In this document: positions 15,542 to 64,000 of the stretch, piece after piece
Layout: each line of letters opens with the position of its first letter
How positions within the stretch are numbered: the first letter of the stretch is position 1
Source: Kappaphycus alvarezii
Taxonomy: Eukaryota > Rhodophyta > Florideophyceae > Gigartinales > Solieriaceae
Reading direction: 5' to 3'
Assembly: GCA_002205965.3 (NCBI GenBank)
Contig: NADL03000749.1
Span: 372,001 to 436,000, forward strand
Length of the DNA stretch: 64,000 bases
Translations under genes and position numbers: made by a program
The notes under the pieces: model-generated
What the model was told of the DNA's origin: nothing
The model's database searches: none
The model's input: the letters and a program-made list of their open reading frames with translations, nothing else

Positions 15542-17101
15542 CTACGCGTATTCTTCTTGCACGTCGCAGCGACTATCTTCATCCGTTTCCGCACCGACCC
15601 TGTACGAGATCTCACTCGACGAGAAGCTTATGCGAAAGGAGTTGCTTTCACTATTTGATATTTCCATGGGGCTCCTTGAGGGATCTGCCCCGACTGCATG
15701 CTTGACGTAGACACTGGCAATATCAGGGGTGGACGCGGGCGTAACAAAGGTACGGATTGAAAAGAGGAGCAGAAGGAGAGCCACGGTTGCAAGGAAAAGA
15801 GACAACCAGTTCACAACCCTGACCCGCTCTTGCCATACTTCAGCTTGACTTGTTTCGATACCGCTCTCAAGAAAAAGATCTTCCTGATCTGGGTCGGTTA
15901 TGACCAAAGCCGCAGCCGCTCGAAAGTGATGCTGAGCTACTCGCAATATTGGCGACCCGTCTGGTATTACTCCAGACACCTCAGTTATATATCTTCTCGA
16001 GTTGACGGGAAATGAGGAGTTTGGAATCCGCAAGATATCGTATTGCAGGCCAGGCTGTGTGTCGTCATAGGAGAATATCAGGCTTCTCAGGCGGGTTAAG
16101 TTCATGTCTTTGTCTTCGGGTATGGATCTCGCGTACAGACTAAAACTGTATGCGACGAACAGCAGGTGCACGTATTCGACTTGCTTCGATTCATATTCAC
16201 TAGTACCCGTGCTTCTCATGAAGCGGGACCGCCCGTCTCCGAGTACGAATACGACTCGCGTAGAATAGTTGGCGGTCAGGTTACCAATACTCACATAGTG
16301 ATCCGCTCCGTAATCATGGAAGTCGGATACGATTTTCAGAGTCGTTTCCTCGGTATTTGCCTCGAAGAGTTCGACGTGGGTAGGATCTACAGTGCTTTCA
16401 GTGCAGCCATTAATCCCTGTGGATGCTTGCTCAACATTTAATAGGAGGGCTGGTTCGCACGGGCGGTTGATAGAGACTCGTGCGTGGAAGCGCAAGTTTG
16501 ACCACTCGGGAACGATTGGTTGCGAAATGCGAAAAGTGGCGACACGGTTGGAAACACTCACCAAGGTGGAATTCGTGAGAAAAAGAATTGCCACCTCTAC
16601 ACCGAGAGACGACATGAGAATGAGAGAGGAAATGAGCAGCAACGGAACATTGATTTTTCTGCCATGCCTATGCTTGCGGCGAGGTATGACGCTCCGAAAG
16701 CTGAAATCCTTGAGGAGTTCGATGACTTGTTTCACCGAAAAGCTGAAATTGCTAATGGCGCCATGTCTCGAGCGTAGCAGAAATGCGGCAATGATGCTGT
16801 CCATTAGTAGTAAAACAATGAGGGACAGAAAGGCGAGGAGTACGTCATCGCGGGTGGTAAGATCTGTCTGAAACCTTCCCGACACACGTCTCTCAACACG
16901 GACGAGGGGCAGAACGAGGGTAGCAATGTTATATCTGTTCGTTCCGCCCATATGATGAATGGCGGATATGTTGCGGGCGATGGTTTCGTTCAAGTTAAGC
17001 TGGAAATGCGGGACATTGAAGTTGTCGTTCGTTTCAACAAAAGGGTGGTTCATGTTGAGTTTGTGGCGGCGAGAATGTAGATACAGGCTACTCTCCCACA
17101 A
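15542..17101 (-). CDS. Membrane glycoprotein of unknown function, paralog 1
   Basis: Uninterrupted 519-codon frame, intronless, function unknown. The likely start is the second Met (MNHPFVETND, 17 residues in), where similarity to paralog 37330-39054 begins to be alignable. Seen: a hydrophobic segment about residues 88-112 (DDVLLAFLSLIVLLLMD), a second about 150-176 after a basic loop (RRKHRHGRKINVPLLL), a large domain about 180-415 with N-glycosylation-type sequons (NSTL, NLTA, NYST, NLTR, NSSF) and paired Cys, a third hydrophobic segment about 435-458, and a polar Ser/Glu-rich tail. This predicts a plasma or endomembrane protein with one exposed domain between the second and third segments. 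No family name recognised. One of only two clean host-like genes in the window. Confidence 0.75.
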   Translation of the reverse strand: MWESSLYLHSRRHKLNMNHPFVETNDNFNVPHFQLNLNETIARNISAIHHMGGTNRYNIATLVLPLVRVERRVSGRFQTDLTTRDDVLLAFLSLIVLLLMDSIIAAFLLRSRHGAISNFSFSVKQVIELLKDFSFRSVIPRRKHRHGRKINVPLLLISSLILMSSLGVEVAILFLTNSTLVSVSNRVATFRISQPIVPEWSNLRFHARVSINRPCEPALLLNVEQASTGINGCTESTVDPTHVELFEANTEETTLKIVSDFHDYGADHYVSIGNLTANYSTRVVFVLGDGRSRFMRSTGTSEYESKQVEYVHLLFVAYSFSLYARSIPEDKDMNLTRLRSLIFSYDDTQPGLQYDILRIPNSSFPVNSRRYITEVSGVIPDGSPILRVAQHHFRAAAALVITDPDQEDLFLESGIETSQAEVWQERVRVVNWLSLFLATVALLLLLFSIRTFVTPASTPDIASVYVKHAVGADPSRSPMEISNSESNSFRISFSSSEISYRVGAETDEDSRCDVQEEYA

Positions 17102-19522: not shown

Positions 19523-22500
19523 ATGCAATCCTCTCCCCTTGCCCTTGCACCAAGCCTTCCATCTCCACATGAGATTCTCACCTCCCCCTTCCGCCCATCC
19601 GATCTCTTCACATCCATTCCCCGCCCATGCCTTCACGCTACCGTGCTTCTGTTTATCCGCCTAATACGGGCTGCATCTTCCTCCCTTCCCCCCGAAGAGA
19701 CACATGCAGCCTTTATCAAGCTACACCTTTTCCCCGTTGCTGTCTTTCGGCGATCACTTCGAGGAGAACCTGGCTGCCGGTCCCACAAGGGTCAAGTGCG
19801 CGGTCTCCGAGAGCGCATACGGAGAGCCTCCGGAGGGGATTGGACTGCTCTGTGGACTGAGGCTATCTCTGCACACCGCCGAAACACTGAATGGAATCTC
19901 ATGCACCGACGCCCCCGGCGACAAAATGCTTCGCCTGACAGTTTCTGCACAATGCGAGCTCTCCACCTGGCGAAAGAAGGACAGTACTCGCGCGCCATGC
20001 GCACCCTGCTCCATGCCCCAGTGGCTGACGCTGGGAGCTCTGCTGTTATCAACAAGCTGCATGAACTCCATCCAGATCCTCCGGCACCCGTGCAACCAAT
20101 CCCTCCTCCTGACCTCCCGCCCGCCCCACACATCACCGAAGCTGAGGTCCTACGGGCGGCAAGATCTCTCAATCCAACTGCCTCGTCAGGCTCTGATCTT
20201 ATGTCCCCGCGGCTTGTACGCCTCATTGCCACGACCTCCATCTCCCCGCAGGCTGGAGTCACCGGCCTCTCCGCTCTCACGAACCTTGTCAGGCGCCTAG
20301 CCAGGGGTGACCTGCTCATGCAAACCCTTCCTCTCCTCACCGCAGCCACCCTCATCCCGATCCAGCCCCGGCCGGACAAGATCCGCCCTATCGCAATTGG
20401 ACAAACGCATCGACGCCTTGCAACTGAAGTCCTACTTGGTCCGGCCCTCGCTGATACCCGCACTCATTGCGCCCCATGTCAACTCGGCAACGGTATTTCC
20501 GCCGGCATGGACTCCATAGTTCATGACGCCAGAATGCACATCAACAAACATGGTCGCGATGCAGGCTACGTCATGGTCTCGGTTGATGCCCGGAATGCTT
20601 TCAACGCTTTTTCTCGCCAGCAGCTCCTCCGCATCCTCCCATCCAAAGCCCCCTCCCTGGCGCGCTTCATCAACATGATATACGGCCGTAGTCCTCCGCC
20701 CCTATTCGTGCGCACCCGGGCCCCCGAAGCCGCTCCTATCATGCTTTACAGAAAGGAGGGAACCCAGCAGGGAGATCCTGCAAGTATGTTCCTCTTTACT
20801 CTGTGCTTACAGCCTCTTGTGCAGAAAATAACCGAGGAATGTGCTCTCAACTTGAACCGCTGGTATGCCGATGATGGACTCCTCCTCGGCCCTGTTGATG
20901 AGATCTGCAAGGCTCTACGCATCCTGGTTCACGCCGGTCCGGCTTTCCAGTTCCACATCAACGCCTCCAAGACCCTGGCATATTGGCCGTCTCTATCCTC
21001 GGACAGCCTACGCCAGCTACGATGTATGCTCCCGCTGTCTATCCCAAATGAGAACGGAATTACCCTCCTGGGCACCCCCCTGGGCTCTGATGAGTACATG
21101 CGCTCCTTTCTCAAGTCTCGAATGGACCTCTGCGACAACATGCTCGCAACCCTGCTCAAACTGCCTCACCCTCGCACCGCCTTTCACCTCCACAGACTCT
21201 GCGCATTGGCTTGCAAAGTGCAACACGCCTTCCGGCTCACCCCCCCCCGTCCATTGCATACCCCCTCGCCAAGGAGTTTGACAAGTCCCAAATGGTAGAC
21301 TATTCGAGGCTCAACTCCGTGCCCCTTACCACTCAGAGCATCCGCCAAGTTCGCCTCCCCTTTCGCCTTGGCGGGCATGGCTTTACGTCCCTAGCCCTCA
21401 CCCTGCATGCCTCATATGCGGCCAGCCTCATCGAGTCCGCACCCCTGCGACACCCCGAACGCCCTGCCGAGTTCTGTATGCGATGCGCACGACCTGCAAT
21501 GCGCTTCGTGGCCACCGCGCTTGAATCCCCCTTCCAGCCCCTACGCCTACAAGAAGAACTTCGAAACCCCCAGTCCTACTCTCTCGGACACTTGGAGCCC
21601 GAAGCCCTAGCAAAGCGACCTGAAAGACCACACCACTTTCTATTTCAGGCCATTCACAATTCGGCGGCTTCCAAGCTATGGGAAGAGGACATATGGACAG
21701 CTCAACCACGACCTCCCCGACACACTCAGGTTTCCATTCGCCTTCGCGCGAGACGTAATTCCTTGCTCAATCCATGCGCCTACGCGTGGCTCATTGCGCA
21801 TCCCTCCAAGGCTAGTCATGTTCCCCCGAGGTCTGGTCCATCATGCTTCGCCGGCACCTCGACCTCCCTGTTTTCCACTCGTCAATTCCCCTTGTTTGCT
21901 CCCACTGTCTCGCTTACATGGACGCCCAAGGCGACCATGCTTCGAGTTGCACCTCAGGATACAACGCCGCTACCCGACACAACTTCCTCCGGAACCTCCT
22001 TACGACTGACATGTTCCGACCTGCCGGTCTTGCTCACAGACAAGAAGTTCCCAACCTTGTGCCGGGTACAGACCTCCGGCCAGCCGACATCCTCGTCCAA
22101 TGTGGACCGGAACCTACTGACACGCTGGATGCGCCGACGCAAATCGCATATGATGTCACCATTCGCAATCCTATGGCCCGATCTTACCTCAAACAAGCTG
22201 CATTGGAACCTTGCGGGGCAGCCGAATCGGCCTACGTTGACAAGGTGAAGACCTTCGACCGCTCAGTGAGAGCTGCGTTTAACCTGACCCCGGACGCTAC
22301 TTTTCCAAAGCTCGGTTTTCACTTTGTTCCGCTAGCTTTCGACTCTTTCGCCGCGCCCTGTAAGTCAACCTCTGGGGTGATTGAGACCCATGCGAAATTG
22401 ATATCGCGACGACTGTTCTGTACACCAGCGGCGGCCCTTGACCACCTGCGGCAACGAATCTCGTCGACCACATGGTCTACCTTTGCAACATCGATCCAAG

Positions 22501-37329: not shown

Positions 37330-39054
37330 TCAATGAGAAGTGTAACTTTCTCCGCTACCTGTTGCCCATTTCATGCTCCCGAGACGACTCGGTCCCTCAT
37401 CGCTATAGTTGCTTAGAGTGTCGGAAACCTTCTCTGTCACCTCTTTCGATTCCAAGACCAAACTAAATGTCGTTTTCTCGTCCCTATCCATTAGCACAAC
37501 CGGTCTCCCAAATTCTGCACCCACCTGTTGGCTCACATATGCCCCAGCGATTTCTGCCGTGCCGATGGGCTTCAGCAAAAACCTCAAGAATATCAAGACG
37601 GCTATTGCAGACGCCAGTAGAATCGTCATTGTCAACCAGTTTAACCTCCGGCTCTCCTCCAGCCACATCCGTCGCTCGGATGCCCACGTATTAGACGAGC
37701 CAACGTCCATGTCGTTTAGGTCAGGTCCCTGTACTGCAATCCCAGATGAGCCCTTTAAGAAAGCCACAGCAAATCTTAACGCGGCATCCCCTCTTGGCAG
37801 TACACCTCGGACCGTGGTGGTAAGGAGGGTCGAAGTTACCGTCCTGAATCTTTGTTGTCGATTGATTTGCGCCACGACGACTTCACCACCGTCCTGAAAA
37901 GTACTGTTGAACGATGATTCCAACGATGCCAGTCGCTGTAGGTCCATTGTTTTATCGTTGGTACGTCGCACATATTCATTAAAGAGGAAGGCGACAAATT
38001 GGCGATGAAGATAAAACGTTCCAGCATCATGATTTAAAAAGTAGGACCTCTTGTACATGATTTTGCGTCTCTGGTCATTCAACGTGTAATAGACAATCAT
38101 CTTGTAGCTTGCCGACGAATTTCCAATAGTGATTTGGTGCTCCGCGCCAAACAAATGGCTTCTCGTCTCTATCTTTAGGTCGACCTCATCCGAGACGGTT
38201 TGAAAGCCAACTGATGCCGAGAGGTCACCTGTTGCAGCAAGGCAAGGTGTGACCCTAGTGTTGCCCTGTTCGATGGTACCACTGCTGTTACTGACAATGG
38301 TGACGGAGAGACACGGCCGATTGGCGGCACTACCGGCATTGTCACGGATGACATTCCAATCGGGTTGCAGATTCTCGATGTAGGTGAAGGCAGCTAGACG
38401 ATTGGTCACTTCCGTGAATTCCGGAGTTGACAGCCAGAGCACACCCACCTCTAATCCAAAGGTGAAGATCAGGGTGGCGGAGGCTACAAGCAAAAGGCGG
38501 ATGTTGATTTTGCGAGGTGGGCGGCCGTCCGGAACAGGTCTTCCCCGGATGAGACGGCGGAATTTGAAATCGCGGGCGAGTTCGATAAATTGCTTGATGG
38601 AGAAGCCGAAATTGGAGACATGGCCCTTGTAGGTGCGAAGAAGTATTGTAGTGAGAATGGCCTCGATCACAAGAAGCAAGAGGAGGGAAAGGACGGTGAG
38701 AATAAGATCATCGCGGGAAGTGAGGTCGACCGAGAAGCGGGTAGAGCTGCGTTGGGACACTGCGATTCTTTCAGAAAGGAAGCTGGCAACGTCGGTGCTT
38801 GAAACGTTTGGGTCGTAAGGGATAGAAAATGCATGGGGAATATCCGAGGCATTGTACCAAAGGTAAGGATTCCCTTGGTTGTCAGTTAAGACGTATGGAG
38901 AAAGTACAAGTTTTCTGGGTATCGATGTCATGTTGGCATGGAAACGAGGGGCATGTTTGGACGAACGGAATGAGGAGAGTGAGATGCCGGCAGTCCGACC
39001 AATGTGTAAACGGCTAGTACCGAAGCAGTGAAAGGGACAGCCGCCCACCGACAT
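37330..39054 (-). CDS. Membrane glycoprotein of unknown function, paralog 2
   Basis: 574-codon intronless frame, paralog of 15542-17101: compare SVDLTSRDDLILTVLSLLLL with TDLTTRDDVLLAFLSLIVLL, and GHVSNFGFSIKQFIELARDF with GAISNFSFSVKQVIELLKDF. Same plan: two hydrophobic segments (about 113-137 and 180-203) around a basic loop, an exposed domain with sequons (NSSG, NSSA, NSTF) and Cys, a third segment near 495-518, polar tail. The true start is unsure: Met 42 (MTSIPRKLVLSP) fits the paralog better, while an overlapping frame from 39116 (MSASISNESKLPTRLLRKLV, then a hydrophobic VPFTASVLAVYTLVGLPA) looks like a signal sequence joined by a frameshift or small intron. Function unknown. Confidence 0.75.
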   Translation of the reverse strand: MSVGGCPFHCFGTSRLHIGRTAGISLSSFRSSKHAPRFHANMTSIPRKLVLSPYVLTDNQGNPYLWYNASDIPHAFSIPYDPNVSSTDVASFLSERIAVSQRSSTRFSVDLTSRDDLILTVLSLLLLLVIEAILTTILLRTYKGHVSNFGFSIKQFIELARDFKFRRLIRGRPVPDGRPPRKINIRLLLVASATLIFTFGLEVGVLWLSTPEFTEVTNRLAAFTYIENLQPDWNVIRDNAGSAANRPCLSVTIVSNSSGTIEQGNTRVTPCLAATGDLSASVGFQTVSDEVDLKIETRSHLFGAEHQITIGNSSASYKMIVYYTLNDQRRKIMYKRSYFLNHDAGTFYLHRQFVAFLFNEYVRRTNDKTMDLQRLASLESSFNSTFQDGGEVVVAQINRQQRFRTVTSTLLTTTVRGVLPRGDAALRFAVAFLKGSSGIAVQGPDLNDMDVGSSNTWASERRMWLEESRRLNWLTMTILLASAIAVLIFLRFLLKPIGTAEIAGAYVSQQVGAEFGRPVVLMDRDEKTTFSLVLESKEVTEKVSDTLSNYSDEGPSRLGSMKWATGSGESYTSH

Positions 39055-42283: not shown

Positions 42284-43168
42284 GCGGACGATAGAGAGGC
42301 TGATGCACAGAGATGCGGGGTAAAGGGGGGTGTTAAAGGGGTTTGATTTACTGTGGTATGTGGGGGGGAGGGAATTGTGACCTTTATTTAAAGATTTAAT
42401 TGGGTACTACGTTACAACCCTCACAAAACCGTAGCCAAAATAAAATCAGTAACCCTTGTGCTATCGACATCCAACAAATAGGCCATATACTGTACAACAG
42501 TATACTGTATACTGTAGTCTGGCCCGAGAAATTGAAGTGTCCCCTGCGGGAGCTCACGAGCGCTGTTGCGGAAGTCATTTTCCGCATGGCCTTTTGCCAA
42601 TCACTGAGAACAGTAATTTCTTTTCCCGAGCCTCAGATCTGAACAGGGAACGATACCAACCTTAGAGATCCAACGAAGGCGCCTTATGGTATTCTACGTA
42701 CTTCCATGGCAGTGACATAATGGCAGGGCCGCATGAGAAGTTGTCGGAAAGAAAAATTTAATCAGTCGTTCTGAGCTGCGTGGTCGGATCCCGCAGTGGA
42801 CAACACAAAATCTAATTACCGCAATCTGTTCTTGATCTGGCAACAACCTTCAGCTGCATCTTTTTCCGAGTGGACTTTAGAAAAGATTGCTTCAACACAG
42901 AAGCCTGTCCAGTAAATGCAGCAATCAATGTCGTTGAAAGCCCTATTGAAATGTCAACAGAAACATTTAAAATTTTAGGTTTGAGTAAGGCGGGTGAGCT
43001 ATGCATTCTGCGGGGCGCGACGTACTAAAACCGCTGAGCACGTGTACGAAATGACCTGTCTCAGCCGTTGGTGGGGCCAAGTCCTCACTTCTCCCTTCGA
43101 GCACCCATTGCAAGTCGCAACAGTGACCGTGCATTGGTAAATTGCCTTGAACGTCGTCGCGGACCAGG
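42284..43168. other. No supported gene
   Basis: Upstream of the small minus-strand gene; a TACTGTAC-type run (ACAGTATACTGTATACTGTA, near 42488) lies inside. Other open frames have no motif. Confidence 0.35.
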
Positions 43169-50413: not shown

Positions 50414-51664
50414 TTGGTGGCGACAGTGGATTGGGCAGACCCAAAATTTTACGGGTTGGAACCGCACTTGCTAGATGTGGCACGATTCCTAGCCGGAGAA
50501 AGGGTTCAAAAATCCGACCTGAAGAAGAAGATCGGAGTCAGACTGAGTGCGAAGAGTCTCATTCTCTGGAACGACACTTTCTTTCGTCGCGAGAAGGAAG
50601 GAACCCGTGTAGTGCCTCCGAGCGGTCAATGCTCGGAGATGCTGCCCACTTTTCACGATTATATTGGCCACTTGGACCTCAGTTCGACAAAAAAGTTCGT
50701 CAGAGACCGATTCTGGTGGCCTGGGGTGTACCGTGATGTCACAGAGTATGTACAGGGTTGTCGTGGGTGTCAGCATGCGAGAAGTTTGCCGATGCATCAC
50801 TCCAGTTTGAGAGCTTCCGTTACTGGACTCTTTGAGACCTTCTCGATGGACTTCGCTGGACCCTTCAAGCCTTAGAAGACTGAAAAAAGATTTATTCTGA
50901 TCGCTGTGGAATATATGACTGGGTGGTCCATAACGTGGGCCACGACTGATTCTACTTCCGATACGGTGACGAAGTTCATCGAGGAAGAGATAATATCACC
51001 ATTCGGACTTCCAAAGAGAATTGCCTCGGATATTGCGACTGCTTTTAGTGCGGGATTGGTACAAGGGGACATGAAAGAGAAGGGAGTCGAGTGGAAGGCG
51101 GTGCTTGCTTACGCACCGATGGCAAACGGTCGCGCAGAGCGGATGGTGGGCACTATCACGCACGAGTTCAAAAGGTCGATCGTCCGCGGTGGGACAGACT
51201 GGGCAGAGGCCCTCCCCAAAGTCCTATCTGGTTACTGCAGACAGAACAGAAGCGACGCCCCTTCCCCTTACCGACTGATGCGTGGAACTAATCCGAGGAT
51301 GCTGGCCAGTGATTCGGCGGAATTTCTCAGTGACGCACGCCACCATCATCGGCTTTTCGAGACCTTAGCCGGTTTTGAAACGCGGGCTGGCGTGGTGGGG
51401 AAATCTAGCGAACCCCGCAAGGCCAAGGGAAAAGTCAGGGATTTCGAAGTTGGAGATGAAGTCTTGGTATCGCACGGCGCGGCCTTCAATAAGGGGCGCA
51501 TGTGGCCGGTCTTCGACTCGTATTTCTTTGGACCGTGCAGGGTGACTAAAGCGAAACACCCTCGCTACGAGTTAGTGTCCCGCACCGGTCCCGTCACAAG
51601 GAAGGCAATTCATGCGCACCGGATTTTCCCATATCAGAAGAGATCGACCCATTTATTCAACTAA
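50414..51664 (+). pseudogene. Gypsy-2 integrase, mostly open
   Basis: First frame 50414-50875: zinc finger FHDYIGHLDLSSTKKFVRDR ... GCRGCQ and first catalytic Asp in TFSMDFAGPFKP. After a TAG, 50906-51664 continues: SDIATAFSAG with the second Asp but D-I-A in place of the usual D-N-G, NGRAERMVGTITHEF with the catalytic Glu, then FEVGDEVLVSHGAAF and FFGPCRVTKAKHPRYELV. No chromodomain. The 252-codon second frame is intact, the best preserved part of Gypsy-2. Confidence 0.75.
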
Positions 51665-53805: not shown

Positions 53806-54908
53806 TACCTACACTACCGGCGGGAATTATATTAGGCCCCTCTTTTTTTTAGTCACGTAAAGACTTAAGCCCTATATATAATCCTCTTGATCTGCAGGGC
53901 CAAACCTGGAAATTTTATTGAATAAATATGGTAAATTGATCTGCAGGGCCAGTGTTTCTGGCCTGGAATCGACATGTATGTTTTTTGGATAAATTTTCGC
54001 TGACCGTGCAGGTCAGGTGTAGATTTTCTGATATTTTTTCGTGTCCGTGCAGATCACCTGTGTGTTCTAATTAGAAGTAAAGTACGAAGTGAGTGCAAAT
54101 CCTCTACACAACTGTTTCGATAACTGGTCACCATAAATTGGTAGTGGACCGGTAGTTAAGTGTACAACAAAAATAGAGAAGACGGGTTGTTTGCCCTTAT
54201 TTTCCATGTTGGCAGGCTGGCGAGCTAACTGATCTTACTGTTCTTATCGACAGCAGGGTGTACGTAGACACGAACTGAAGTGAATTAACTAGCCTGTTTT
54301 GTTTAAACTTGATAGCAGAGATTGTCAGCTCTACGGCATACTATAGCTTAATAAGCGCCGAAATCATTGCGTAGATATCCCCTGCGTTTGTGATATGGAA
54401 AAAGATGTGTTCCTAATTAAAGATGATTGTGATACTCATAGAAGGAGTCCACTAGTCGAGGAACGAAGGCGTTCCTCAGAGCCTCAAAACTAAATGGCAT
54501 GGCTGGTACTACAGCAAAAGCATCCTTCGGCCGCGAAACGATACCTGTACTGGACTCCAAAAAAAAACGTTAGGCACAAGGAACCCGATAGTAGTTGAAA
54601 AGAAAATTTCTTGCCGATTAGTAACATAAATTTGCATGGCCGTGTGGGAATTCTTGGAATTCATGGTGTATACTATTCGGAGTAGAACGAACCGCACCAT
54701 TGTAAATTCTTTTTTGTATTCGAATCTTGCTTAGAACCCACTTGACAGAAGATGGTAGTGCCTGTTCTGTGTAATGAGTCATGCTTGGAAATATGTGTAA
54801 ACGAACAGCAGGAGATTCTATCGTGAATAAAAAAATCTTGAACAGAAAAGCGAGTGAAGGTAACATTATTCATGCTTGAAATCTCCTAACTGAATGCTTA
54901 CAAAACTC
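53806..54908. other. No supported gene; left flank of the palindrome block
   Basis: AT-rich. GATCTGCAGGGCCA occurs twice (53890 and 53939), each inside a short AT-rich unit, with related GTGCAGGTCA and GTGCAGATCA words further right; a small degenerate repeat. No gene. The palindrome-bearing region begins at 54909. Confidence 0.4.
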
Positions 54909-54942
54909 GGTGGATTTTGTTCCGACCGGAACAATCTGCACC
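54909..54942. repeat. 34-bp palindrome, copy 1
   Basis: Consensus arms GGTGCAnnTTGTTCCGG and CCGGAACAAnnTGCACC. Here the right arm is perfect and the left arm has four mismatches. Leftmost copy of the family. Confidence 0.8.
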
Positions 54943-55722
54943 ACGGGGCACTGAAAATAGAAACATGTGTTCGCAATATTTTCGAATTGACAAAACTCGG
55001 ATGACAATGAAAATCGAAAGTGGGAATGAAAGTCAAAACTGAGAACGAACAAAGCGAATTTGTGAAATAAGTAGGTTCGAAGTGGAAATATAGTATATAT
55101 ACCTATAAATCGACAATTAGATCTTTGATCGGAACTTGATCGAATTCCACGATCTTTCGGTTGACCGAAACCAAACTTTGAATCATACAGGTATCTGCAA
55201 AAACAAGATTGGAATGACCAAATTTGGCGGGAAAACCGATACAGATGCAAATCCAAGATAGATTAAATGTTCAGTTTCTTGCCCGTCTGTCGATGCCTTT
55301 CAAAGAAGAAAATCATTAACGTACCTCAGATATTCGTTGCAGCCGCCTATCGACCTCAACACTAAGCCACGAGTGGAATTGTTTTCCTCGAAAGATCCGA
55401 ACATTCGAGTCCAGTGTTCTCGCCGTTCCTTCGCAAACGGCATCTAATCGGAGAGTACGTGAGGTGGAGGACCCTATACCTCTCCCCTTGAACGCATAGG
55501 AGTTCTGCGCGTTCGAAGTGCTTGGTTGTCGAGGAAGCCCCCTGAATTTTCAGCACCATCTCTGCTTCTCCGCGGATTCCTCATTGGATGGGAGGAGTAC
55601 TTCGAAGAACAAGATCACAAATCCAATTTAAGCAAATCTCAACTTCGTATCAGTAATCAATTGTCTCCAGATCAGGAATCCTTTCCAAGGCAGATCAATT
55701 CTGCACGGCTTTCAAAGACTTT

Positions 55723-55756
55723 GCTGCACTTTGTTCCGGATGGAACGATCTGCACC
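55723..55756. repeat. 34-bp palindrome, copy 2
   Basis: GCTGCACTTTGTTCCGG / ATGGAACGATCTGCACC. Upstream of the zinc-finger ORF. Confidence 0.8.
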
Positions 55757-55794
55757 GTAACTTCAGCACCAGCGGAGTACCAGATTCCTAATTT

Positions 55795-55828
55795 GGTGCA
55801 CTTTGTTCCGGCTGGAACGATCTGCACC
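55795..55828. repeat. 34-bp palindrome, copy 3
   Basis: GGTGCACTTTGTTCCGG / CTGGAACGATCTGCACC. 38 bp after copy 2 and 70 bp before the ATG of the zinc-finger ORF. Confidence 0.85.
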
Positions 55829-55898
55829 GAATTGGGGAAAGAGATTTAGTTTCCTAACTCTCTGAACCGTCAGTCTTGTTGAGAAAGGGTTTCTTCAA

Positions 55899-56849
55899 AT
55901 GAATATCTTCAAGGCTGAAGAGCGACTTCGACTTTCACAAGTATTTGTTGTCCCTCACGCCAATATCATTGTCTGTGGGATATGCGAAGGTGGGATTGAA
56001 TCAGACGAACAGAACTTCATTCGTCATATGCGTCGCGAACATCATCGGAACACGGCAGATGCCCGAGAAATGTTTCAATGTGCTATGGAGAAGATCACCG
56101 CTGTTGAAACGAACCGTGAACTTGAAGAACTGTACAAGGAGAAGGACTCGACAAAGAGGAACTTTCGATTACTTCCAAAGCTTCCTGGACTTCCAGTGAC
56201 GAAGGTTGTGAAGTGCATGCACTGCAATCACGTATGCAAAGGACACCGCACCCTGGCCCGTCATATTAGGGAGAGTCGAGACCATGATGAGATCGATGGC
56301 GAAGTGGACATTTCTGAGGTTCCCCTTATAAATGGACAGTCGCTTTGGCGTGGAACGAAAGCCAAGTTCTACTTTGCAATAGAAGATAAGCACCTCGAGC
56401 ATGGAAACGAAGGTAATGGTAGCGGCTCTTCTCGTAGCAATCTTACTGCAGCGTTGGAACATGTCCGCGATTCTGCCAGTCGATTGAAGACTCACCAACC
56501 AAAAATGAAAGGTGTTGTTGTCAGATACCTGCACACGTTTGCAGCATTGACGCGACTTGATGTGTACCAAAATAATTTCGGAATTACATGGGAACATGCA
56601 GTTCTGCTCACTGCTGGACCCGGACGGGGTAATGGGGAAGTCGGTGATAGAGGGGAAATAACGAAAGTTGCGGAGGAAATTAAGCATTGTTTCCAAAATA
56701 TTTGTCGTCTGTCCCGAATGCATGCATCTCAGCCGAACATGCGAAGAAATGATATCTTGCAAGCTGTTTCGGCTCCAGGAACGACTTCGAAGAAAGTTTT
56801 TCGTATTGTCCAGAAAGCACAGAAGAACGTTATGCGCGACACGGAGTAA
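55899..56849 (+). CDS. N-terminal C2H2 zinc-finger part of the helicase gene
   Basis: 316 open codons. First finger C26-x2-C29 ... H43-x4-H48 (IVCGICEGGIESDEQ, FIRHMRREHH); second C106-x2-C109 ... H122-x6-H129 (VVKCMHCNHVCKGHRTLARH). The LPKLPGLPVTKVVKC lead-in and the INGQSLWRGTKAKFYFAIE segment after it match the paired-finger (OrsD/DUF3505-type) start of fungal helicases of this class. These fingers probably recognise DNA. The rest is helical and ends KAQKNVMRDTE at a TAA. Function beyond DNA binding is inference. Confidence 0.65.
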   Translation: MNIFKAEERLRLSQVFVVPHANIIVCGICEGGIESDEQNFIRHMRREHHRNTADAREMFQCAMEKITAVETNRELEELYKEKDSTKRNFRLLPKLPGLPVTKVVKCMHCNHVCKGHRTLARHIRESRDHDEIDGEVDISEVPLINGQSLWRGTKAKFYFAIEDKHLEHGNEGNGSGSSRSNLTAALEHVRDSASRLKTHQPKMKGVVVRYLHTFAALTRLDVYQNNFGITWEHAVLLTAGPGRGNGEVGDRGEITKVAEEIKHCFQNICRLSRMHASQPNMRRNDILQAVSAPGTTSKKVFRIVQKAQKNVMRDTE

Positions 56850-57022
56850 GGCTAGTGTTGATGACTTTTCGATTGTATCGATTACTAGATTTCGAAAGGT
56901 TCCCGGGCTTCAACTTTGAATTATCCAGATCGGTGTTGATGATGGCGAAGGAATTTTTTGATACTCTGAAATCGACACGACCACGGGAGTCAAGTGCAGA
57001 ATCTCAAATGGAAAATGTTGAT

Positions 57023-57056
57023 GGTGCAGTTTGTTCCGGCCGGAACGATCTGCACC
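57023..57056. repeat. 34-bp palindrome, copy 4 (in frame)
   Basis: GGTGCAGTTTGTTCCGG / CCGGAACGATCTGCACC. Lies in the 56855-57115 frame and encodes GAVCSGRNDLH, the same reading phase as copies 5-7. Confidence 0.85.
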
Positions 57057-57369
57057 CAGATTCTGCGCACAAACTATTGCACACGGTAGTCTTGAGCAGT
57101 CCGATGGCAGATTGAGGGCACTTTTCAATCTCATCACAGCCATATTGTACGAAAGAAACACACTCGAAAGCCAGATTGCCCCGAATGTGGCAAATGTATT
57201 CGTCGCCTGTCTCGGTGTTTTTCGAAAAAAGAGCGAACAACCACGGCTTGCTGAAGGGAGAGTGATATCTCCAGTTCTAGCTGGTCTTGCGTATATCGCT
57301 GGATGTTGTGAATTTTGTCAATTGATCTCTGGCACGGAAAGGGAGGAAAACAGAAGGCCTTCGAGCTAG
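57031..57369 (+). pseudogene. Helical linker segment of the helicase gene
   Basis: VANVFVACLGVFRKKSEQPR and ISPVLAGLAYIAGCCEFCQL resemble the segment between fingers and recombinase-like domain in the family ('F-x-F-L-A-x-L ... I-T-x-x-L-A-x-L-x-Y-I'). It ends at a TAG at 57367, and a second stop (TAA near 57443) follows in the same frame before 57499. Placement is by order, not by catalytic motif. Confidence 0.45.
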
Positions 57370-57498
57370 TTATGCAACGGCACTCCCCAATACCGGGCTT
57401 GGAATAAACGTGTTCCAAGAAATGCTGGCTAAACGAAAATAACAAGATCCGCTGAGAACGCCAGGGAGCTCTGGGTTCCTTGCTCTGAGCCGACACAT

Positions 57499-58500
57499 AT
57501 GAACTGTGGCTGGGCATCCGGTATTCATATATCAGATGAGGAAGTAGGGATCACTATACGTAAGATGCAGGAAGATATTTGCGGATTAATATTCGGAAGT
57601 GACGGTATATTTGGAGGTGAAAAGTTTCCTGCGACCCTTGAAGCGGAGCTACTCTCCTTGCGCGATGATTTGACCGAGAGAAAGGTCGGATATTGTTTTT
57701 TGTGTCATCCTGGGAACGAATCATTCGTGGTTGGATGTCGGGGGTTTGTGAACAAAGCAAGTATTTCAATTTCAAAGCTTTCGTCCACTCAAAGAAACCT
57801 CAAATTCCGGAAGATACTACGTGACATCGAGAATGTTGCTAGACTGTTAACAACTGTACTGTATCTTTCAAGTGGAAATCCACCGCGCGGTAGTGAGACT
57901 GGCTTACATCTCGTTCGTAACTCGCAGCTTGCTCCTCGCAACTTCATGCTGTTCAACGAAAGAGTGACTTGCATACCTGGATATGAGAAAACAAGAGTAA
58001 TGCGGGGTGGTAGGAGGAGAGTGGTTAGCCGTCATTCCGATATCACGACCAGTAATTTGTTCAAAATATTCTTTGCATTGTTGATGGAATTCCGAGCTGC
58101 AATACGACTGCAACATGAGCCTGATAAATCCGCTGGTTGTGACACGCAAAATGCTGTGGAGATGAACTTCATACTTGATTCCGATTTTGATCGTAGAAAT
58201 ACGAGTGAAATAATCGGAAACGTTCTCCAAAAATACGGGCTCAGCGTTAGGGTGCGGGATTACCGTCAATGGATTGGCGGATACTGCAAGATAAAGCGTT
58301 GAAGAACACTGCCATGAAATATGCAGTCGAAGATGAAGGCGGAGCTGATGCGATTGATCAGGATGAGGATGGAGATGTTGTTCAAAATATTGGTCAAGTT
58401 ATGCAGATACAGGCCGGTCATAGTCGGTCAACCGCTGAGGGTCAGTATGGAAAAGCGATGACCGGTATAAGTATTGCGAGACCTGGCACGCTTCCGGCTC
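57499..58500 (+). CDS. Tyrosine-recombinase-like domain of the helicase gene
   Basis: Two frames meeting at 58269-58302. Residues that match the tyrosine recombinase catalytic set: R130 in LYLSSGNPPRGSETGLHLVR (box I), K164 in IPGYEKTRVMRGG (beta-hairpin Lys), R253-x-x-R256 in SVRVRDYRQW (box II, with Arg where His is usual), then in the second frame H51 and Y60 in IQAGHSRSTAEGQYG. The H-to-Y distance of 9 equals that of XerD-type enzymes, and G-H-S ... T ... Y is the standard motif. The enzyme class cuts and rejoins DNA through the Tyr. A frameshift near 58290 now separates box II from the H and Y. Confidence 0.6.
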
Positions 58501-58712
58501 ACATTGATCAACGTTCGATTTCTCTGTACCTTGCATCTGCAGATGTGTGGATTGCGGACTGCAAGATAGTCGAGAAGAAGTCATTTTCCGAATTACTCCG
58601 AAAGAGGGAATGGAGCAGATATGCCACAGACAGGACTAAAAACGGGGGGCTCCTTCCAGAGAAAAGGAACCACGGTATTCACGACAGTAGGGCTCTGAGC
58701 GACGGACGATAT

Positions 58713-58746
58713 GGTGCAGATTGTTCCCACCGGAACAATCTGCACC
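58713..58746. repeat. 34-bp palindrome, copy 5 (in frame)
   Basis: GGTGCAGATTGTTCCCA / CCGGAACAATCTGCACC. Encodes GADCSHRNNLH (residues 149-159 of the 58269 frame), between recombinase-like and helicase domains. Confidence 0.85.
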
Positions 58747-58877
58747 ATGAGCAGTCGAAAAGGCGAAGAGAGGGTCAGAAAGGTAACAGCAAGGCGACTC
58801 AAGTTGAACAGAAACAGATTTCGGAGTACGGCGAACGAGCACCAGAACGGAGGAGAGTTATGCATGATCGAAGACTG

Positions 58878-58911
58878 GGTGCAGACTGTTCCCGCATAGA
58901 CAACCTTCAGC
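58878..58911. repeat. 34-bp palindrome, copy 6 (degenerate, in frame)
   Basis: GGTGCAGACTGTTCCCG kept, right arm eroded (CATAGACAACCTTCAGC). Encodes GADCSRIDNLQ, still recognisable as the same peptide in the same phase. Confidence 0.6.
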
Positions 58912-59021
58912 ATAACCAGATCGGGAGACGAGGATACTGCTTTCAGAAACGCAGTGCGGAATATGTGGTTTTGGAGAGCATTACCCCGGAGAAACGCTCA
59001 CAGCCTGTAGACTTGGAAGAT

Positions 59022-59055
59022 GGTGCAGATTGTTCCGGCCGGAACGATCTGCACA
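59022..59055. repeat. 34-bp palindrome, copy 7 (in frame)
   Basis: GGTGCAGATTGTTCCGG / CCGGAACGATCTGCACA. Encodes GADCSGRNDLH (residues 252-262). Confidence 0.85.
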
Positions 59056-59259
59056 TTGAACAAAAACAAAGGCCAAATGAAATGGATAAAAATAGTATGA
59101 AAGTATATCCGGTTGCTGAAATTGGGGATCTGGATGAACATTCTGAAAATAATGTCATTCTCAGCACAAGTACAGAAGCATTTCCAGAACATGGACAATC
59201 CTCGTCACTTACCCTTACAGACGAGAGCCAAAAGCTGAAAAGGGCCCTCTGCCTGGGGA

Positions 59260-60313
59260 CTGGAATTGAGAATGCGGAGTTCAAGTCATCTTACCAAAAG
59301 GAAGGCATGAAGGCCGTAATGGATGCGAAACAGGATATCCTGTTTGTGGATAGAACCGGAGGAGGTAAATCAGCAATCATCTTTGGGCCAAGTCTTGTCG
59401 AAAACGGGGTTACTATATACCTGAGCCCCATGAAATCTCTGAAGGAAGATCTGAAACAGAGGTGCAAGAAAATAGACCTCCTAGCCACTAACCTGGATGA
59501 AATTGCAACGAGATGTGATATTCCACGGAACGGTATCGTTTTGGTATCACCAGAGGAAGTTGGAACTGACGAGTACAGAGACATAGTTGGTCGGTTGTAC
59601 TCTTTGAAAGTCCTGAAACGGTTTGTCGTGGATGAGGTACATATAGTTGTTATGAGTGAACACTACAGGGATTGTATGGCAAAAATGAGAATGTTTCGTT
59701 CAGAGGCAATGAAAGTACCGATGGTGATGATGACAGCCACGGCTCCACTAGAAATGACGAAGGACATTCTTATATCCGTCGGCTGCGTAGACGGGCATGT
59801 CAAGATTATTAGAGGAAACTTACGTCGAGGGAATATATCACTTGACGTGCAATACCTGAGCGATGGGTCTGAAGAATGCCTGCTATTGGCCGTTGTAAGG
59901 AGCGTCATCACCGAAATTAGGGGCTTAGGGGGGAGATGGCAGGAAAACATCTCATTTCCGTTTTGACAAGGGCCGATGCGGAGAACATTGCCTTTCTAAT
60001 TTCAAGAGTGGTTCGAAGCCCTGACAATGCAGTTGACCATTTTGTCAACGTTCGCACGTATCACAGTGGGATGAGAGAAGGTGATAAAGAAGAATCTGCA
60101 AAGGAGTGGCGCCAAGCTCCCGTTGATGGAAGCGAATCATTTGTAATGGTCGCGACAGACGGATTTGCAACAGGAATTGACAGTCCAAATGTTAAGTCAG
60201 TTCACATAGCCGGGTGTGCCCGTTCACTAATTGACTTGTGTCAAATAATTGGAAGAGTTGGAAGAGATGGGTCGCAGGGAAACCGAGAGTGTTGTTTCGC
60301 CCAGCGCATATGA
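59260..60313 (+). CDS. RecQ-like helicase core of the helicase gene
   Basis: ATP-driven DNA unwinding domain. Motifs in order: Q-type FKSSYQKEGMKAV, Walker A LFVDRTGGGKSAIIF (K367), Ia TIYLSPMKSLKEDL, IVLVSPEEVG, motif II FVVDEVHIVV (DEVH, residues 455-458), motif III MVMMTATAP, then after a frameshift near 59945 motif IV HLISVLTRADAENIAFLI, RTYHSGM, motif V MVATDGFATGIDSPNVKSVH and motif VI CQIIGRVGRDG. All catalytic motifs are intact, in contrast to the frame. DEVH, TATAP and Q-x-x-GR-x-GRDG place it with RecQ-type superfamily 2 helicases. Confidence 0.8.
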
Positions 60314-60399
60314 AATGGGCCAGTATATGTGGAGAGTCTGCCGTGCAGCGGGTAATGGGATTTGCAGGTTGGGCTTGTAACACAGAAATGTGCAGGATG

Positions 60400-61256
60400 G
60401 TTGCAATTGAAGGGTATCTTGGAACTGCGAGTGGACGAGAGTGGTGTTGGGAAAGGAAGAGCAGTAGTGGAACGGCAGTGGAACTGTGTGACGTATGTAT
60501 GAAAGTCGTGTTTCCATGCGAGGAGGAGAAAATTATGACACCGCCAATTGATTTCAACGGGAACGAGGGAATGGTAATGGAATCAAAACGAGCACTCACC
60601 CGGAAACCAGCAGCGGCATGGCTTCGACAATGGCCTGTTAGAAACAAATTTAGAAGTGAAAGCGATGGCAGGTAGAACAGGTCAGTCACAGCTGCAGAAA
60701 TCTTGAAAGAAATTGACGAAATACGTGAGAAAGCGAGGGATCTTGGAAAGCATTGTGCTCTGTGTCTGATTAAAACGGGGAGAGGTGACAAATCCACTAA
60801 ACATTGGGGGGTGTTATGCAAAGAAGTGAAGCAAACGTACTGGGATCGATGTCTTCGGTGCCTTGGAAATGGACACGAGGCAAAAAATTGTCACGTTCTA
60901 GTTAGACCGACAAGAGGCAATGGACGGCTAGGATGCACAGAATTTTTCTGAATACTGTTCGGGGAGAAAGAATCCATTATGGAAATGGCTCCCCAAAATA
61001 TGGTCGAAATGAGTTTAGCAGCAGGGAATTGTGCCCATTCCAAGAAGTTACTCGTCTGGCTGTAGGTTGCTGGCAGGACCGGAAAATCAGGCGGGCAATG
61101 GTTAACAGTGGAAGATTCTCAGATTTAGAAGAGTCCACGGGATTGGAGGCATTCACACGATGGCTGACGAAGGATAAGGCAACGACCGAGCCCGGATTGT
61201 TAGATTCATCAAGTATGCATATCAAGAATTCCAAGTTTAAGGAATGTTCCAAATAA
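60400..61256 (+). CDS. Cys-rich C-terminal part of the helicase gene
   Basis: Reads IEGYLGTASGREWCWERKSS and VELCDVCMKVVF (zinc-binding region after the RecQ core), then after a TAG at 60673 AEILKEIDEIREKARDLGKH with CALCLIKTG, KHWGVLCKEV and CLRCLGNGHEAKNC, and in another frame ELCPFQEVTRLAVGCWQDRK and FTRWLTKDKA. The C-x2-C ... H ... C ... C-x2-C series and the 'W-L' end match the tails of telomere-associated helicases as I remember them. Probably a second DNA- or protein-binding zinc module. Confidence 0.55.
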
Positions 61257-61440
61257 AGGAAGTTGCTCTTACCATGAAAACTATGCCTGGTCAACGTATT
61301 GTAATGAGCACATAGCATGGTGCAGTTGTACATATATGTTTACAGCCGACTGAACCGTACGCGCAGACAGAACAGGCAAATAATTAAACAGTTAAAAAAA
61401 GGAAGCATCGAAACGGAAGAGAAGGTTGCAACCCTAACCA

Positions 61441-61735
61441 CGATATGGCTTGATATCGGAGTGGTGCAAATTGTTCCAGCCGGAACAAACTGCACCAAGA
61501 GGTGCAACCTGTTCCGACCGGAACAGACTGCTTGATTGATATCTGAGTGGTGCATAATGTTCCGGCCGGAACAAACTGCACCATGTACGCCACGGACGGT
61601 TGCTAGCAAGGATATGGCTTGATATCGGAGTGGTGCATATTGTTCCGGCCGGAACAAACTGCACCATGTACGCCACGGACGCTCGGAGTGGTGCATATTG
61701 TTCCGGCCGGAACAAACTGCACCTGTTGGCAAGAT
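61441..61735. repeat. Array of five 34-bp palindromes downstream of the helicase gene
   Basis: Copies 8-12: 61463-61496, 61501-61534 (eroded right end), 61549-61582, 61632-61665, 61690-61723. The last three have the perfect core TTCCGGCCGGAA. Spacers are also repeated: GATATGGCTTGATATCGGAG before copies 8 and 11, and CATGTACGCCACGGACG after copies 10 and 11, so the array grew by tandem duplication. Start-to-start distances are 38, 48, 83 and 58 bp. Confidence 0.85.
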
Positions 61736-62451
61736 GGGATCTACTCCGGTTAGAATTTGTAGCGCAAGGAAGGTACCCACATTATATAAGCCCACAGTAG
61801 CAAAAAAAAGTTAGTAGTAAATACTGTACAAGGTCGTCTGTATGAAACTTACCACAATATTTTCTGTAATGTGCGAAGAAGTCAGGTAATTCCCCCGGCT
61901 GTAGAGTGGCGGTAGTGGAGTTTAATACCGTTCGATGAAATATAAGAAGAAAGACAAGGCGATCGGAAAGGAGAACGTGAGAGATACGGAAGGGAAATTG
62001 ATACCGGTAGATGTAGACATGGATGAGCAGGAGAACATGGCGAGCGGATGTTAAATGATGGACGACATATGTGATCGCGAAAGCATCTCAGAATTTCGGC
62101 GGCGGAGACGGCCAAAATCAATTAGGGTTACACGTAGACGTGATGCCTACATATAAAAGAACCATGCTTACTTACTGCGCTCCCTCGACTTTCAATGCAC
62201 GCATTCGTCCCTTAGCAATCATTTCTTCTGCCTTTCCCCTCCTTATGTCGCACTAGTTCCATGCAATAACTCAACGCAGTCGTTCTGTTATCTCTTTTCG
62301 TTCCACTCAGGAGGCGGCCAAACTCGTCCCCAGCGCTTTCGCTAAATTCTTCCGCAGCAACTTTGACGGGGACTTCGTGAGCCATTTTCACCGACATTAG
62401 ATCAAGATTGGATCACCTTGATCCAAAAAGACAATTGGATCCAGCGAGTCC
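61736..62451. other. No supported gene
   Basis: Between the palindrome array and copies 13-14. A 61-codon minus frame (62212-62397, MSVKMAHEVPVKVAAEEFSE) has protein-like composition but no motif or partner; not called. Confidence 0.3.
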
Positions 62452-62529
62452 GGTGCACATTGTTCCGGTTGGAACAAACTGCACCAGGTGCACCAGGTGC
62501 ACATTGTTCCAGTTGGAACAAACTGCACC
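62452..62529. repeat. 34-bp palindromes, copies 13 and 14
   Basis: 62452-62485 and 62496-62529, each GGTGCACATTGTTCC with a TT or AG centre and GGAACAAACTGCACC, separated by AGGTGCACC. They lie immediately before the ATG at 62538. Confidence 0.85.
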
Positions 62530-62537
62530 AGCCCATC

Positions 62538-62876
62538 ATGTATAAGGCTTGGAAGCATTTGAAAGAATCTGTGGAGATGGTACAAGGTAGTCCGGAAGGG
62601 CTAAAAGCTATTCATGAAATATGGAAGGCTCAATTTGAAGCCATCAAACAGGTTCTCCTCAAAAACGGGTATACGGACGGTGATCTTCAGAAATCTCTGA
62701 TGATTGCGTCGATGTGGCTCTTGTTCCATGGAATAAAACCGAAACCCCTGGTGATGGATATCGAAGAAGCCGTGGAAAATGAAATCCATGTGGCGTGCAT
62801 CGACAACAGGGAAGTGGTTGACGTCGCTGAGAGGAACCCAGGAGTAATCAAGAGCTGTTATGAAGCTTTTCGTTAG
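62538..62876 (+). CDS. Hypothetical 112-residue protein beside the palindromes
   Basis: Open frame starting MYKAWKHLKESVEMVQGSPE; the frame is open further upstream through both palindromes, but this Met is the first after them. Predicted mostly helical with amphipathic stretches (GLKAIHEIWKAQFEAIKQVL, LQKSLMIASMWLLFHGI) and an acidic middle (MDIEEAVENEIHVACI). No family recognised. The composition is protein-like, unlike most small frames here, and no competing frame is present. Its position right after copies 13-14 suggests that it belongs to the same element as the helicase gene, possibly as a partner protein. Confidence 0.4.
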   Translation: MYKAWKHLKESVEMVQGSPEGLKAIHEIWKAQFEAIKQVLLKNGYTDGDLQKSLMIASMWLLFHGIKPKPLVMDIEEAVENEIHVACIDNREVVDVAERNPGVIKSCYEAFR

Positions 62877-63126
62877 ACAAGTAAGGCAAATGTGATAGAT
62901 ATAAGTGCCTCCCGTAAGCTTGTGGGGCATGACATGAAAAGGGATGAATCTACAGACAGTCAGGAAAATATGATAGAATTTTGCATGACATGCATGTTGA
63001 GTACGAAAGGTTTAAAATATCATAGTTTTCATGACACGTTCTACGACGAAAAAATACCGTAGAAATCATTTCCGACACTTCCCAGAGAAGCCTCCTACTG
63101 TAAACCACGTCCATTCTAACTCAACT

Positions 63127-63300
63127 TAGAAAAAATCCCCTTATCTCCAAATGCCCTTATCCCCTACTCAACTGGGCCCCTAAACCCCCCAAACCCCCTA
63201 ATCCCCTATGTCCTCGTAGTCCTCTCAGTCCCCCAAGGCCCCTCAATCACGTGAAACCTTCCATAAATCCCGTAATCCCCTGAAGCCCCAAAGACTCTTG
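63127..63300. repeat. C-rich degenerate telomere-like tract
   Basis: Many words of the type CCCCTAA, CCCTAAACC and CCCCTTATC (ACCCCCTAATCCCCTATG near 63200). Irregular, so not an active telomere, but of interest beside a helicase of a family that in fungi sits at chromosome ends. Confidence 0.4.
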
Positions 63301-63480
63301 CAAAACCCGTTACAATATCGTATCATAACGGTAAGGTTCCCCCCAGCGACTAAGGCTCTACGAAAAACTGTAAATTGAAAAATAAACACCCAGCATCCCG
63401 ATAAGTGAGATACTGTGGAGGTCGATAACGAGAGCAGGAAATGAGTGCTAATAAGAAAATTCACAGTAATACTCTGAATT

Positions 63481-63514
63481 GGTGCATTTTGTTCCAACCG
63501 GAACGATGTGTACC
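63481..63514. repeat. 34-bp palindrome, copy 15
   Basis: GGTGCATTTTGTTCCAA / CCGGAACGATGTGTACC. Rightmost copy found; isolated, about 950 bp after copy 14. Confidence 0.75.
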
Positions 63515-64000
63515 ACGAAGGCACATCGGATACTGAGAGACTTTTGTAGAACGTAGAAAAAGAATAGAACACAACATGTACATTTCTACAAGTACCCGGC
63601 ATTAAAATTAAACGGTTATGAAACGTATGCAGCACCGTTATATTGTTATACGACTTATATCCTTTGAACGGACCGGCGGAACGTAGTAATTCAACTGTCA
63701 TCAGTAATTATGTTATTACGTTTGTAAAACGTATCTCGGCCTGTTACGTATCCGTTCTGAAAGCGAACAAAGAAAAGAGACAAGTGTGGGGTGTTGAGCG
63801 CACAAAAGGTAATCGATGGTTGAACTGTTGGTTGATGCTTCCGGTAAACAGGCCGGAACATCAGACCAGGGTTTATATAGAAAAAGTACTCAACACCAGC
63901 AGAGATAAATTGTAACTAAACGGTACTGAATTCAAAGGTATTCTAGAAAAAGCGACCCAGAGGTATCAAACTACAAGGTTCTGAAGGTCCATCAGTATAA

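Follow-up and report, generated by a model that had tools for sequence, protein, structure and literature searches.

A candidate one-ended mobile element of chromosome ends with a telomere-linked-helicase-type gene in Kappaphycus alvarezii

The stretch of Kappaphycus alvarezii DNA analysed here (the window, 64,000 nucleotides, C745:372001-436000) carries a cluster of 34-bp inverted repeats (dyads) around a gene with zinc fingers and a RecQ-like helicase, which raises the question of what the dyads do and of what kind of repeat they belong to. The first-pass annotation had taken the dyads for crossover or binding sites of the encoded protein, and the whole for a helicase-assisted mobile or subtelomeric amplification system. 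In the genome searched (336 Mb, 884 contigs; labels such as C595, C89 and C94 denote its contigs) the dyads are found again, similarly spaced, on other contigs, and those of the window are part of a large mobile element repeated at contig ends. The best explanation, and one that we consider fairly probable, is a one-ended, site-specific mobile element of chromosome ends, which carries a gene of the telomere-linked helicase (TLH) type and has the telomere as its distal end.

The left end, the joint and the distal side

Eight copies or ends of the element have been assembled from neighbouring stretches. The window holds a family A copy, with the following features at its left end:

53871-63785 (+): family A element, from the exact left (centromere-side) end to an interruption by other sequence
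53871-53873 (+): joint trinucleotide CCT, common to target and element, as seen from the unoccupied paralogues of 12 junctions
53888-54056 (no strand): four subterminal copies of TGCAGATCA/TGATCTGCA, at offsets 18-, 67-, 137+ and 178+ in C595

The left end reads CCTATA(T/C)ATAATCC... (window 53871). Its first base is identical in 8 of 8 assembled copies, the flanks of which are unrelated, and further left ends that were read have the same first base, except the one on C750 (A for C). Searched with up to 3 mismatches, the left end of families A and B is present at 21 places, with no match in the control. Four of them lie on C94 in tandem units with one flank, which leaves 18 distinct junctions; among their left flanks, no pair is similar at E 1e-3. 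The C94 array (C94:301164-328082) is situated at a contig end; its unit, about 6.9 kb long and present four times in tandem, always comprises the same left flank and the element start.

Unoccupied paralogues were sought for 17 flanks, all but that of the family B junction on C492. They were found for 12 of the 17, and none was found for the other five (C745, which is the window copy, C652, C487, C783 and C165). The left terminus at the insertion joint is CCT|ATATATAATCC, and the trinucleotide at the corresponding place of the paralogue sets is CCT in ten cases, ACT in one and CCG in one. Single deviating paralogues occur among the ten CCT cases (one of three is TCT for C89, CCA for C733 and CTT for C595), and in the case of C493 one paralogue aligns with a shift of one base. 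For C750 the paralogues have ACT (4/4) and the filled joint likewise has ACT; for C651 they have CCG (3/3) and the filled joint has CCT. The target can therefore supply the first base of the joint, and the element may supply the last. The joint would be an exchange within a 3-bp overlap; no target duplication has been seen at the left joints, and the target sequence past the joint is not kept beside the element. Within 190 bp of the left end lie the four copies of TGCAGATCA/TGATCTGCA, which have TGCAGAT in common with the dyad arm. The exact left end and the CCT-like target with unrelated flanks are new findings.

All 21 left ends of families A and B face a contig end, at a distance of 2.1-26.9 kb. 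The left end of family C, present at seven places (control 0), behaves in the same way (7/7, 4.5-48.8 kb off), and 9 of 13 gene matches of families B and C lie no more than 45 kb from the end they face. A link with chromosome ends is weakened by the four family C gene copies on C782, C33, C55 and C483, which lie 70-415 kb from the faced end, and by the possibility that assembly breaks account for some contig ends; had internal copies been broken in this way, inward-facing left ends should be present too, and there are none among the left ends found.

Telomere repeats lie beyond the element in 7 of 9 ends read, and on C595, C652, C9, C492 and C488 they stand at the contig end itself. The longest copy, on C595, measures 16,114 bp, contains 22 dyads and is followed directly by telomere repeats as far as the contig end; a family C copy, that of C488, also passes into telomere repeats reaching the contig end. 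The copies on C9 and C492 are shorter and are cut by telomere repeats, while on C652 other sequence of 5.9 kb precedes the terminal repeats. On C745 and C651 the telomere repeats beyond the element (about 44 bp in C651) are followed by other sequence; on C536 and C487 the sequence stops before any telomere repeats, and the family B copy on C24 enters a short stretch of them. The repeat is heterogeneous, mainly ATTTAGGGG, TTTTAGGGG and ATTAGGGG, plus other forms (L009:5461-5921; ends of C595, C492, C652, C9 and C488). A subtelomeric satellite of about 860 bp follows the telomere repeats (L009:6611-9780; L024; L040) and is itself a target of the element in C9, C89 and C651.

A defined right end has been considered and rejected. 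The right-most sequence of the element (up to 2 mismatches) occurs only in C595 and C651, with telomere repeats next in both, and the subterminal motif TGCAGATCA/TGATCTGCA is absent there, which indicates one defined end; the distal end of the element would then be the telomere. The sequence that interrupts the window element at 63785 is common to C536, and the homology to C595 stops there.

Inner sequence is homogenised in some pairs of copies. In 5 of 14 pairs (C536 with C595 and C651, C595 with C651, and C487 with C595 and C536) the divergence, 1.3-2.0% over the first kb, is down to 0-0.3% some kb outward; for C595 and C651 it climbs again past 11 kb. No clear fall is present in the remaining 9 of 14, including all pairs with C745, C492 or C652. 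The drop implies that inner parts have been at least partly exchanged by homologous recombination. A whole-unit transposition of the tail common to C745 and C536 was also considered and has been dropped, since the middle of C536 is closer to C651 and C595 and homologous exchange can explain that tail. Taken as a description of a subtelomeric, amplifying and mobile system with a helicase, the first-pass reading is supported by these copies at contig ends and their unrelated flanks.

The gene and its recombinase-like region

The main gene of the element is of the TLH type and combines an OrsD/BED finger part, tyrosine-recombinase-like motifs and a RecQ helicase. In the window it is broken by single-base indels into the following pieces:

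55899-56849 (+): first open piece, with OrsD domain and BED zinc finger
57499-58302 (+): open piece with the tyrosine-recombinase-like motifs PPRGSE, YEKTR and DYRQ (motifs, no recombinase profile match)
58269-59966 (+): open piece with the GHSRSTAEGQYG motif, a dyad-coded linker and the first half of the RecQ helicase
59967-61260 (+): second half of the helicase (QIIGRVGRD) and Cys-rich C-terminal tail; frames interrupted here, open in C651

Profile searches of the window gave matches to OrsD (E 2.6e-10), the BED finger (1.1e-5) and the DEAD helicase PF00270 (1.5e-12), and the best PDB match of the helicase piece is BLM (4.7e-15). The zinc fingers and the RecQ-like helicase of the first-pass annotation are upheld by these matches; its recombinase-like catalytic set is represented by motifs only. 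The copy on C89 has an uninterrupted frame of 1,645 residues, in which the BED match is slightly below the cut-off and NCBIfam recQ_fam is matched at 1.2e-15 and 57 bits, below the curated cut-off of 219.8, with the scanned piece ending inside the helicase. The order of motifs after OrsD/BED in this protein is: (i) R..E (665); (ii) KTR (699); (iii) YRQ (790); (iv) GHSRSTAEGHYG (842); and then (v) GGGKS, DEVH and QIIGRVGRD of the RecQ helicase. The frame of C651 extends further, into the Cys-rich tail.

Substitutions at the three codon positions amount to 115:104:272 between families A and B (about 861 sites each) and 260:208:447 between A and C (about 764 each). They are mostly at third positions, thus the protein has been under selection. 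The protein of family C is about 43-60% identical; that of family D, at about 21% identity, shows almost the same succession of motifs, also fused to a RecQ helicase. Members of family D, distant recombinase-like/RecQ fusions, were noted on C811, C860, C540, C168, C655, C587 and other contigs, often near contig ends and in either orientation (8 of 12 copies within 40 kb of a contig end), with repeated copies on C811.

The reading of the middle region as a tyrosine recombinase is a prediction, which draws on motifs, named from general knowledge, and on the type of joint. KTR, YRQ and GHSxxTAxxxYG are common to families at about 21% identity, and family A has R..E, K, R, H and, nine residues on, Y in this order, as does the family D copy on C811 apart from the first R. 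Several results weigh against this prediction. Searches of PDB, Pfam, PHROGs and NCBIfam gave no recombinase profile match, and comparison with XerD, lambda Int and P1 Cre was negative (hhalign probability 0.1), with shallow alignments. A loose catalytic signature, which also fits XerD, Int and Cre, occurs in 1360 of 20000 shuffles; a strict one, drawn up with the sequence already in view, occurs in 38 of 20000 and matches none of XerD, Int, Cre and family D. Tyrosine recombinases usually carry H/K three residues before the box II Arg, and here that residue is R in family A and S in family D. In the C811 copy, S replaces the first Arg.

The distal part of the element carries a second gene, found in three family A copies and in one 50% relative. 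It has no family match and has been treated as a passenger. By eye, a PHD-like Cys/His cluster is visible in this gene (L011:6021-9633 on C651; L024/L025 on C9), and dyads are present inside its coding sequence as well.

The dyads, their relation to the gene and their possible role

The dyads of the window, none of which is assigned a strand, are arranged as follows:

54665-54698: very degenerate dyad, with a related copy in family B
54909-54942: dyad 1, upstream of the gene
55723-55756: dyad 2, upstream of the gene
55795-55828: dyad 3, upstream, 70 bp 5' of the start codon of the first open piece
57023-57056: dyad 4, in the coding region (GAVCSGRNDLH in other copies)
58713-58746: dyad 5, in the coding region (GADCSHRNNLH)
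58878-58911: dyad 6, in the coding region, right arm decayed
59022-59055: dyad 7, in the coding region (GADCSGRNDLH)
61463-61723: cluster of five dyads (61463, 61501, 61549, 61632, 61690), mostly in an 83-bp tandem repeat
62452-62529: pair of dyads (62452, 62496)
63481-63514: last dyad of the window; 7 further ones follow in the full copy on C595

The arm GGTGCAnnTTGTTCCGG (up to 3 mismatches) has 29 matches in the window, where 100 shuffles lead one to expect 1.56; 28 matches lie inside 54909-63514, with a single stray one at 42853. Whole-site scoring with up to 9 mismatches gives 15 places, of which 13 have 0-4 mismatches; at the other two, 58878 (8 mismatches) and 61501 (6 mismatches), the right arm is decayed. 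The 15 copies first reported between 54909 and 63514 are thereby confirmed, far above the shuffle expectation.

The dyads track the gene, with a centre specific to the gene family. Genome-wide, the dyad (up to 3 mismatches) has 158 forward and 159 reverse matches, and its backwards control has none; those with 0-1 mismatch, among the matches listed, are all on contigs with the left end of the element or the gene. The dyads of family B sit at positions corresponding to those of family A, and dyad 4 (57023) has a coding-region site at the corresponding place in families A, B and C. Family C dyads have the same outer arms and another centre, TCGT/ACGA (33 forward and 33 reverse matches, control 0). 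The C-type pattern is present at 55 distinct places, or 37 once 18 family A sites are left out, and 24 of these 37 lie within 10 kb of a family B or C gene match. The expectation that dyads and gene go together has thus held for families A, B and C, and the check set beforehand, that related genes should have matching diverged dyads, came out positive for B and C.

The three upstream non-coding dyads are 79% identical between A and B, against 61% outside them, and at their conserved core positions the identity is 87.5% of 72 (permutation p=0.005). The half-site derived from C595 (20 sites, up to 6 mismatches) is GGTGCAnnT(T/C)GTTCCnn. Pairing between the arms exceeds independent variation by at most 1.7 sites (position 9, 18 versus 16.3) and at position 8 is below expectation (6 versus 9.9). 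The arms therefore vary independently, as two protein-bound half-sites would, rather than as a stem. Judging from these patterns, the dyads are predicted dimer binding sites of the element's own protein, through its zinc finger or its recombinase part.

Other observations fit such a role less well. Within family A no constraint on the dyads was seen (9 of 223 columns variable, versus 178 of 7333 elsewhere). No B or C gene match lies within 10 kb of 13 of the 37 C-type dyads; 3 of the 13 (one on C733, two on C168) belong to a family C left end, no more than 2 kb in from it. The remaining 10 have no such explanation or are fragments, and one of the 10 adjoins a family D match on C502. Another family-C-type dyad lies about 12 kb from a D match on C811. 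Related genes without dyads, which the first-pass annotation had named as evidence against its reading, are thus found in part, namely in the distant family D, with no dyads in 14 kb (7 kb of C811 and 7 kb of C860).

What finds no support is the dyad as crossover site of insertion and as border of the element, since the insertion joints lie at CCT|ATATATAATCC and not at dyads, and the borders are not marked by dyads; the first good dyad is about 1 kb from the left-end joint. As to recombination at the dyad itself, in the manner of a loxP-like site, the joints are at CCT, and 2 of about 8 other breakpoints compared (truncations, deletions or insertions) fall in dyads, the chance of at least 2 being about 0.05. 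These are one side of the C9 deletion and the telomere junction of the C24 family B copy; they faintly suggest that breaks can occur at dyads.

Mechanism, rival explanations and known systems

In the favoured explanation, the one-ended element would have a single defined terminus on the centromere side, CCT|ATATATAATCC with the subterminal TGATCTGCAG repeats, its distal end being whatever carries the telomere. The recombinase-like part would break the left terminus and, in a single exchange, join it to a CCT of a different chromosome arm. Past the joint this arm would be lost or swapped, element and telomere would cap it, and the helicase may drive the copying to the chromosome end. The dyads would be used for assembly, cis-preference or regulation, not as insertion points.

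An ordinary subtelomeric repeat, like yeast Y' (for which we know of no site-specific insertion) or the fungal TLH-like repeats, could instead have spread only by homologous recombination and break-induced replication, the left border being an edge of homology. The low inner divergence of 5 out of the 14 pairs (0-0.3%, after 1.3-2.0% over the first kb) is what this process would leave, as are the four tandem 6.9-kb units with one common flank on C94, and TLH genes have been described from many fungi. However, the process cannot work without homology on the side of the flank, and there is none; 18 unrelated flanks stop at the same place, and 12 of 12 paralogue sets share at least two bases of CCT, save single deviating paralogues, so we regard it as quite improbable. 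Another rival is microhomology capture: a chromosome end broken at a 3' CCT would anneal to a linear or nicked copy at its left terminus and copy it as far as the telomere, the element supplying a site-specific nuclease in place of a recombinase. Such capture is one-ended, the element encodes a helicase, and the joint has only 3 bp, to which the target contributes (ACT in C750), as perhaps does the element (CCG to CCT in C651). Yet the donor end must be cut at the identical base every time, and the motif order R..E, KTR, YRQ, GH...Y is the one to be expected of a tyrosine recombinase, which leaves this explanation unlikely. Helitron, retrotransposon and DDE readings have been rejected, given the general requirements of these classes: no matching enzyme is present in the scanned element proteins, and the joint is CCT without duplication.

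For the dyads, the alternative is binding by a host factor (as silencer, insulator or fork barrier), a small selfish palindrome, or mere fragile spots. Their presence in coding and non-coding parts, where they are read through in three frames, the placing of several in an 83-bp tandem repeat, the dyad-free 14 kb of family D, the family A dyads that are not less variable than their surroundings, and the 2 of about 8 breakpoints within dyads can all be understood in this way. Nevertheless, families A, B and C have dyads at corresponding places, and a centre that differs by gene family is not expected from a host factor; nor is there, by eye, a consistent target duplication or flank repeat at the dyads, for which reason the selfish insert with target duplication was rejected. 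We hold this group of explanations to be possible but rather doubtful. That the palindromes act as hairpins in the transcript is suggested by inverted repeats of 15-17 bp, and has been rejected as very improbable: the arms vary independently, the most variable positions (7, 8, 10, 16 and 17) pair at or below the independent-arm level, and Rfam finds nothing in the window.

Among known systems, the fungal TLH repeats are close to the element described here, which encodes a RecQ-type helicase and stands beside telomere repeats on several ends. In the parts of the descriptions available for Ustilago UTASa/UTASb, Magnaporthe TLH1 and Agaricus bisporus var. burnettii, a RecQ-type gene likewise lies next to telomere repeats on many ends, with truncated copies. 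As far as these excerpts go, the sister repeat UTASb is reported to have an OrsD domain (PMC10532341), nothing outside the helicase core is reported for other fungi including A. bisporus (PMC7473861), and an exact left terminus, a target trinucleotide or dyads are not mentioned. The fused recombinase-like motifs and the site-specific insertion distinguish the present element from them. No paper combining 'telomere-linked helicase' with 'tyrosine recombinase' was found in the open-licence literature searched, and none among the matches listed in related listings.

Cryptons have two ends. The element here has one, with a short joint at the left end and no defined right end found; its distal end would be the telomere, and its RecQ helicase is fused. 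What it may share with Cryptons is tyrosine recombinase chemistry (here predicted only) and short direct repeats at the ends, of 5-6 bp in CryptonS (PMC3212892); the word 'helicase' occurs 0 times in the main text of that paper. Starships are described with a leading 5' recombinase gene and direct repeats (PMC12134995), in contrast to a one-ended element bound to chromosome ends, and the DUF3435 captain (PF11917) had no match at E up to 10 in the scanned pieces, with HMMER filters on. Terminons (PMC6431247) and MoTeR/FoTeR resemble the present element, as far as the available text shows, in their location at chromosome ends and their many truncated copies, which in Terminons are truncated by telomere repeats. 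They encode a reverse transcriptase. No reverse transcriptase match was obtained in the element proteins scanned, which represent part of the open reading frames (ORFs) of the element, and the gene of the present element points away from its constant end. The yeast Y' is likewise a subtelomeric repeat with a helicase (PMC4522978).

Elsewhere in the window, two similar membrane-protein-like ORFs, paralogous by eye, are located at 15542-17101 (-) and 37330-39054 (-). A reverse-transcriptase-like ORF and an integrase-like ORF (by eye), with gypsy-type integrase pieces (Pfam), were noted at 19523-21298 (+), 12473-13234 and 50414-51664 (+).

We tentatively propose, as a possibility short of an even chance, that the element represents a new class of transposition: a recombinase-RecQ fusion would make a single site-specific exchange at CCT and afterwards copy the element with the telomere to the chromosome end, or carry both there, the telomere thereby being the second end of the transposon, with TLHs as captains and the dyad arrays as family-specific binding sites. 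Reports of subtelomeric RecQ genes from fungi go back decades, and there is no consensus that we know of on what these genes do. If the proposal is true, TLHs, long taken as plain subtelomeric helicases, would be the captains of one-ended elements, and the spread, the high copy number and the chromosome-end effects of subtelomeric RecQ genes would have a simple cause. Both halves of this idea can be put directly to the test, through the CCT joint and through the family-specific dyads. It would also mean that a telomere can act as a transposon end.

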